From assembly GCA_009694135.1 (NCBI GenBank), contig SHVS01000003.1, forward strand, positions 1 through 64,000: a stretch of DNA of 64,000 bases, read 5' to 3'. This DNA comes from Alphaproteobacteria bacterium. GTDB taxonomy: Bacteria; Pseudomonadota; Alphaproteobacteria; UBA6615. The translations under genes and the position numbers were made by a program. The notes under the pieces are model-generated. The model was given only the letters and a program-made list of their open reading frames with translations. It ran no database searches and was not told the origin of the DNA. Below are positions 1 to 20,915 of the stretch, one piece after another (the stretch's first letter is position 1; the number at the start of each line of letters is the position of its first letter).

Positions 1-74
1 ATGGCGCACCCGTCCATATAACTCCACGCCCTTCATCCCTCCGCCCCCGGCCCACCGGGCAAAAGGCTTTCTGC

Positions 75-147
75 TGCCGGATTTTTACTCCGGCGCAACC
101 GGACTCCCCGGCCGCTTCAGTGAGGGATTTTTACTCCGGCGCTTACA
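75..147. repeat. Two copies of ATTTTTACTCCGGCG (81-95, 127-141), possible IS21-like element end upstream of nadD
   Basis: Exact 15-bp repeat 46 bp apart; second copy followed by CTTACA. Same motif recurs at 8178-8216. Confidence 0.6.
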
Positions 148-8062: not shown

Positions 8063-8626
8063 ATGGCGCCAAAGGACAAGATTGCGGGCAGATCGGTTAC
8101 CCTTCGTCCGGCCCGGCCTGAATGCGGCCAGCACAAAGGGCCCCCGCGGGGGCCCTATGTGCTACCCCGTCTGATGCATTTTTGCTCCGGCCCACCGACG
8201 CATTTTTACTCCGGCGTTGACATCGCCCGGAGGCTGTATTGCATCACCCATCGACCGATCGTCGAGCGGCTGTTCGGCTGGGACGCCGCCCGCGAGGGGG
8301 CGCGTTTCGACCGAGAATTCACGGTCGAGGAGGCGCAGATCATCGAGATCGGCAGCAATGCGATCGGCTGGCTGCAAGCCGGAGAAGACGAAGGCATGGT
8401 CCGGCTCAAGCAGATCTGCATCGACCGCGCCTTCCAGCGGCGCGGCATCGGCACGAAGCTGCTGCGGGAGCTGATCGCGTCCGCCGACGCACGGCGGCTC
8501 CCCATGGAGCTGACCGTCGCGCGCATCAACCCTGCGGTCGGTCTCTATGCCCGGCTCGGGTTCAACGTCGTGGATAGCAACGACTACGAATTCACCATGC
8601 GGCGCGAGGCGGCGGCGGGCGGGTAG
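8063..8626 (+). CDS. GNAT family N-acetyltransferase containing an apparent in-frame insertion
   Basis: ICIDRAFQRRGIGTKLLRELIASADARRLPMELTVARINPAVGLYARLGFNVV; upstream SVTLRPARPEC resembles a GNAT N-terminus. Confidence 0.8.
   Translation: MAPKDKIAGRSVTLRPARPECGQHKGPPRGPYVLPRLMHFCSGPPTHFYSGVDIARRLYCITHRPIVERLFGWDAAREGARFDREFTVEEAQIIEIGSNAIGWLQAGEDEGMVRLKQICIDRAFQRRGIGTKLLRELIASADARRLPMELTVARINPAVGLYARLGFNVVDSNDYEFTMRREAAAGG
8130..8163. repeat. 34-nt near-perfect palindrome (16 of 17 pairs) within the GNAT reading frame
   Basis: agcacaaagggcccccgcgggggccctatgtgct. Confidence 0.85.
8172..8222. repeat. Two ATTTTT(G/A)CTCCGGC repeats (8178-8191, 8202-8216), candidate IS21-like element end
   Basis: tgatgcatttttgctccggcccaccgacgcatttttactccggcgttgaca; same repeat as 81-141. 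Confidence 0.6.
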
Positions 8627-20074: not shown

Positions 20075-20102
20075 TTGAACCTTAACCGTTTGCGCCTATA
20101 TT
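20075..20102 (+). promoter_or_regulatory. Sigma70-like promoter of ssrA
   Basis: TTGAAC - 16 nt - TATATT just upstream of the tmRNA acceptor piece. Confidence 0.65.
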
Positions 20103-20108
20103 GATGGG

Positions 20109-20425
20109 GTCGGTTGCGACCGACTATGGCGATAAACGCGTGTGGAATAAGCGATGCGGACCCGGGGGCGGTACCCGGCGCCTCCACCAAATTCCCGCTC
20201 ACGGTGCAGCAGCCGCGGGCGGCTCGCATGGGGGCGAAATAGGCTCGACGCGCGTGTAAAGGCATGGCTTTCGCTCGGCATGGTTCCGCCGTTATCGGGC
20301 CAAGTCCACAAGTGCCAACGACAACAATCGTCTGGCTCTCGCTGCCTAAGTGATTAGGTAAGCGCGGTTGATCGGGGGGCCCCGGGCAACAGAATTGCCC
20401 CCCACCTTAAGCAGACGGAGCGGGG
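20109..20425 (+). ncRNA. ssrA: Circularly permuted two-piece tmRNA: acceptor piece (~20109-20189) then coding piece (~20230-20420); ends approximate
   Basis: Acceptor piece ...GGACCCGGGGGCGGTACCCGGCGCCTCCACCA ending CCA at 20189; coding piece starts GGGGGCGAAATAGGCTCGACG; 7-bp acceptor stem with G3-U; tag ORF 20314-20349 encodes ANDNNRLALAA-stop. Confidence 0.95.
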
Positions 20426-20432
20426 CCGCATA

Positions 20433-20915
20433 GTGAGCGACGACCGGCTGGACTACGAGACCTTTGTCGCCGAGGCCCTGCAAGGCGTCGTGCGCCGTGC
20501 GCTCACGCTGGTGACGCGCCGCGGCCTGCCGGGCCAGCATCACTTCTATATCACCTTCAACACCAACGCCCCCGGCATACGGCTGCCCAAGAGTCTGCGC
20601 GCCCAGTTCCCCGAGCAGATGACCATCGTGCTCCAGCACCAGTTCCACGACTTGAATGTCGATGAACAGGGCTTCGCCGTGTCGCTCAGCTTCAACGGCA
20701 AGCTGGAGCGGCTGGCGATCCCCTTCGCCGCCGTGGCCGCTTTTGTCGATCCGTCGGTCGAGTTCGGCTTGCCGATCCCATCCAAACTGGTGGCCGCAGC
20801 CAAATCCTCCGTGGACGCACCGACGGAAGCGATCGCGTCCCCGAGCCAGGCCGGTCCGGCCGAGGATGGCCCGGCGGCAGTGGTGCAGCTCGACAAGTTC
20901 CGCAAGAAAAAATAG
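20433..20915 (+). CDS. sspB: ClpXP adaptor SspB, alphaproteobacterial type
   Basis: HHFYITFNTNAPGIRLPKSLRAQFPEQMTIVLQHQFHDLNVDEQGFAVSLSFNGKLERLAIPFAAVAAFVDPSVEFGL. Confidence 0.93.
   Translation: MSDDRLDYETFVAEALQGVVRRALTLVTRRGLPGQHHFYITFNTNAPGIRLPKSLRAQFPEQMTIVLQHQFHDLNVDEQGFAVSLSFNGKLERLAIPFAAVAAFVDPSVEFGLPIPSKLVAAAKSSVDAPTEAIASPSQAGPAEDGPAAVVQLDKFRKKK

Follow-up and report, generated by a model that had tools for sequence, protein, structure and literature searches.

A 112-bp block lying in frame within a GNAT acetyltransferase gene (8111-8222 of the 64,000-nucleotide window, the whole stretch of DNA analysed here) is very probably the decayed, solitary right end of a multicopy IS21-family insertion sequence (IS), which inserted into the gene and was later removed in large part by deletion. 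It represents a clean and very recent case of a transposable element leaving an in-frame scar in a gene. The features concerned are as follows.

8063..8626, + strand: GNAT acetyltransferase ORF with the IS remnant in frame, 187 aa, ATG start (ORF call, Pfam, homolog alignment)
8063..8113, + strand: native N-terminal GNAT part, MAPKDKIAGRSVTLRPA (LRPA-type motif at the equivalent place in six homologs)
8111..8222, + strand: right-end remnant of an IS21-family IS, 112 bp (matches 16 other right ends)
8111..8121, + strand: GCCCGGCCTGA, last 11 nt of istB including the stop, candidate deletion-junction microhomology (C28 copy)
8130..8163, no strand: IS palindrome or hairpin between the istB stop and the terminal repeats (compensatory changes in 24 right ends)
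8173..8192, + strand: inner terminal repeat, R2-like, TGATGCATTTTTGCTCCGGC, approximate limits (sequence; matched unit in other right ends)
8196..8222, + strand: outer terminal repeat, R1-like, to the IS terminus ...CGGCGTTGACA with 3' CA, approximate limits (sequence)
8223..8626, + strand: native rest of the GNAT gene (ORF call, Pfam, homolog alignment)
1..147, - strand: left end belonging to a further copy of this IS, with the istA start and L repeats (contig terminus)

The host gene

The host gene is a GNAT acetyltransferase on both sides of the block. All 187 codons of the ORF are uninterrupted, including those across the atypical block, and from residue ~91 onwards the product matched three Pfam GNAT models above their curated cut-offs, namely PF13673 (43 bits, cut-off 23.6), PF13508 (41.8 bits, cut-off 27) and PF00583 (40.8 bits, cut-off 20.7). 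The sequence-only reading, which had proposed an in-frame, transposon-derived block in a real GNAT gene, was right on these points. In the product, the block is placed between the N-terminal motif SVTLRPA and ARRLYC. An alignment with six GNAT homologs, 28-40% identical to the window protein, showed that the LRPA-like motif and the helix after it are separated by exactly 7 residues in 6/6 homologs and by 37 in the window protein, a net gain of 90 nt (30 codons) that keeps the frame relation. None of the aligned homologs carried the inserted residues, and at this level of identity the native junction DNA and the true length of any microhomology are unreadable. The public genome contigs searched yielded no close homolog showing the empty site in DNA, and other genomes of the order gave no GNAT homolog at a threshold of E=1e-8; the homologs within the class were distant only. 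Neither an empty nor a full-length-IS allele of the site was found among the genomes searched.

The alternative of a true start codon downstream of the block, which would make the element intergenic, does not apply: SVTLRPA precedes the block, so that the start codon lies upstream, and the first in-frame ATG 3' of the block is at about 8396. Inspected as a possible promoter, the TTGACA at the IS terminus had no good -10 at 16-17 bp, and with the late position of that ATG a short alternative start was rejected.

Assignment of the block to the IS21 family

The block contains a 34-nt palindrome at 8130-8163 (2 x 17 nt without a loop, 16/17 pairs), followed by two ATTTTTNCTCCGGC copies and ending with GTTGACA at 8222, in line with the sequence-only reading. 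The limits first proposed, 8120-8222, held on the right, where the IS terminus lies exactly at 8222, and had to be moved on the left, where identity to intact copies begins at 8111 rather than 8120. Gene and element may have an equal claim to positions 8111-8121 (GCCCGGCCTGA).

A search of the genome assembly (1.6 Mb, 30 contigs, 79% complete), which the earlier reading had suggested as a check, returned 16 other sites matching 8111-8222 over 103-112 bp with 98-100% identity, indicating that the block is not a product of chance. Including that of the window, 17 right ends were present, 14 of them at contig ends and three as remnants; the terminal position of the former is expected where a longer multicopy IS breaks the assembly. 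Thirteen of the contig-terminal right ends retained ~145-149 bp of the element, and the one on contig C28 retained 236 bp, continuing into the C-terminus of IstB (PF01695 positions 209-236 of 238, E=2.4e-8), which reads ...AGAAGCCCGGCCTGA. The last 103 bp of the window remnant were identical to this C28 copy, one base (8157) different from 14 other copies and two bases different from the C19 copy. There were also 14 partner left ends (TGTAAGCGCCGGAGTAAAAATCCC...), 13 of which were at contig termini, and these were read as running into the start of istA. The contig of the window itself begins inside such a left end of another copy (window 1-147). No whole IstA was found in the assembly, as expected if the IS body was left unassembled.

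Tandem L1-L2 and R1-R2 repeats together with a terminal CA define the ends of IS21 elements (PMC10122671, PMC11208146). The element here carries two CGCCGGAGTAAAAAT-type repeats at the left end and two related copies at the right end, and its ends read TGT...ACA; the two ATTTTTNCTCCGGC units in the block fit the R2/R1 transposase-binding repeats, as judged from their sequence. A complete related element of 2,500 bp with the same types of left and right end was identified in a public MAG (L111), and its IstA (NF033546, 250 bits) and IstB (NF038214, 271 bits) both scored above the NCBIfam cut-offs. For the parent element, the adjacency of istA and istB was seen through the IstB of the C28 copy, the istA starts at the left ends and the gene pair of the L111 element. 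Because of the tandem repeats and terminal CA, the IstB next to the C28 copy, the left-end partners and the complete relative, the block is assigned to the istB-side, right-hand end of an IS21-family element. In public genome contigs, at least 105 stretches carried the last 23 nt of the IS terminus. Pairing contig ends by a candidate 4-bp target duplication gave three matches, where about 0.8 would be expected by chance on our own estimate; the genes did not continue convincingly from one paired end to the other.

Two further observations were made in this assembly. Another multicopy sequence with a small ORF (MASSNHLAITRHRLASCIIAGDMAAIREIGDQLDGKP...) was located at contig ends C4e, C9s and C25e, and joins the IS21 remnant on C4. 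In the window, ARAGORN predicted a tmRNA of the permuted type with the tag ANDNNRLALAA at 20093-20440.

The hairpin downstream of istB

The palindrome was present in the intact copies, downstream of the istB stop. It is accordingly best described, from the copies compared, as part of the IS21 right end between that stop and the terminal repeats and not as a separate element, which agrees with the first impression of a palindrome plus a transposon end, both now placed within one right end. Across 24 right ends from this and other genomes, 86% of cells were paired in the hairpin and four pairs had changed on both sides; the covariation score was 0.113, shuffles giving 0.026. When the partner was shifted by 1-3 columns, the paired cells fell to 36-57%. 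It is plausible that transcripts end at the hairpin, or that it blocks transcription entering or leaving the IS. A literature search on a hairpin after istB in IS21 elements found no paper that combined all the terms. The conserved hairpin in this IS21 group accounts for the palindrome in the block and warns annotators against calling such remnants MITEs.

The C19 right end (G000:C19:57-90, L016) carried the window palindrome (8130-8163) in inverted orientation, with its reverse complement matching 100%; most other copies were symmetrical at the positions where the C19 palindrome is inverted. Template switching at the hairpin could explain this inversion, as could two changes that arose independently.

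Proposed formation of the scar and rival explanations

In the proposed history, whose order of events is inferred, a complete IS would have transposed into the GNAT gene between the first strand and the first helix, which would have placed its right terminus next to TCGCC at 8223; if a target duplication was made, TCGC would be the copy that survived. The right junction coincides with the exact IS terminus and is thus a transposition junction. A deletion would have followed, running from the GNAT gene into the end of istB and taking the left end, istA, nearly all of istB and about 11-19 native bases; its probable cause is slippage or illegitimate recombination between GCCCGGCCTGA, or part of it, in the gene and the matching bases of istB. 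Since the left junction would have been deleted, no target-site duplication can be expected. The gene and the IS may have had up to 11 bp of microhomology (GCCCGGCCTGA) in common; in frame, this stretch reads A-R-P-E/D, which fits an LRPA followed by residues common in GNATs. The leftover adds a net 30 codons, with the frame open by chance. Stops were found in two of the sense-direction frames through the remnant and the third was open, so an open frame is roughly a 1-in-3 event that does not need selection. In addition, the remnant matches one copy exactly and differs from most others by a single base, indicating that the event was recent and giving no evidence of selection.

These properties bear on the idea that the remnant, of the same origin, has been kept as a tolerated or useful extra loop, such that the 187-residue protein is a working acetyltransferase with a ~30-residue loop from an IS21 right end. 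The open frame, the intact GNAT core and the replacement of only about 3 native residues speak for this; the chance of one frame in three, the recent age of the remnant and a single-sequence structure prediction of the ORF that was uninformative (pLDDT 41) speak against it, and we consider it unlikely. If it were true, the protein would have changed recently through IS decay with the gene still usable. An assembly artefact, in which a full-length IS21 element in the GNAT gene was collapsed by the assembler or joined through a chimeric read, is less likely still. The assembly does break at most IS copies, but the left-junction overlap does not exceed 11-15 nt, below the usual assembly word lengths, and one gene lies on both flanks of a 98.8 kb contig that continues both ways.

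The least probable of the explanations considered, and a very improbable one, is a non-autonomous, MITE-like element that arose from the IS right end and was moved in trans by IstA/IstB. It would be in keeping with the short length (103-112 bp) of a block bearing a palindrome and transposase-binding repeats, with a remnant on contig C4 that starts within about 10 bp of the start of the window remnant, and with the in vitro activity of IstA on right ends alone (PMC10122671). However, both termini around a short interior were not seen: the block holds a single, right terminus, the sequence starting at 8111 belongs to the end of istB, the left terminus (TGTAAGCGCCGG...) is missing, and 8111-8125 does not contain the right terminus in inverted form. 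Nor did several copies have the same limits, as the inner breakpoint differs among all three right-end remnants, those of the window, C4 (103 bp) and C2 (~148 bp), and the C4 and C2 remnants abut unrelated flanks. The initial description as a miniature or solo element therefore stands in its second part, with one IS end present, and falls in its first, given the missing left end and the differing breakpoints.

Remnants of this kind were also encountered elsewhere. One short left-end remnant was found in the same genome, on C4, and of the 30 right ends in the sampled public contigs that extend inward for 260 bp or more, 11 lacked istB; together with the local remnants, this indicates that solo ends are a common decay product. 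The block is ordinary, recent IS21 decay and not a new kind of element. On C4 (G000:C4 bases ~1-197, L013), the left-end remnant of ~40 bp lies beside a right end of this IS, the two being separated by TGTCAAC repeats, possibly through nested or successive insertions.

Comparison with known systems

Rickettsia palindromic elements (RPEs) and other MITEs inserted in frame in genes have been reviewed (PMC10969869). Like RPEs, the window block is short, palindrome-bearing mobile DNA lying in frame in a protein gene. RPEs are discrete repeated units of ~150 bp that form their own families, whereas the block is the end of an identifiable IS, apparently truncated by deletion, in one case and with no sign of mobility. 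The closer likeness is to the IS21 family, with which the window and its parent element share tandem terminal repeats, a 3' CA, an IstB C-terminus beside an intact copy, partner left ends and a 2.5-kb istA-istB relative; the window copy differs in consisting of the last 112 bp only, with neither transposase genes nor a left end.
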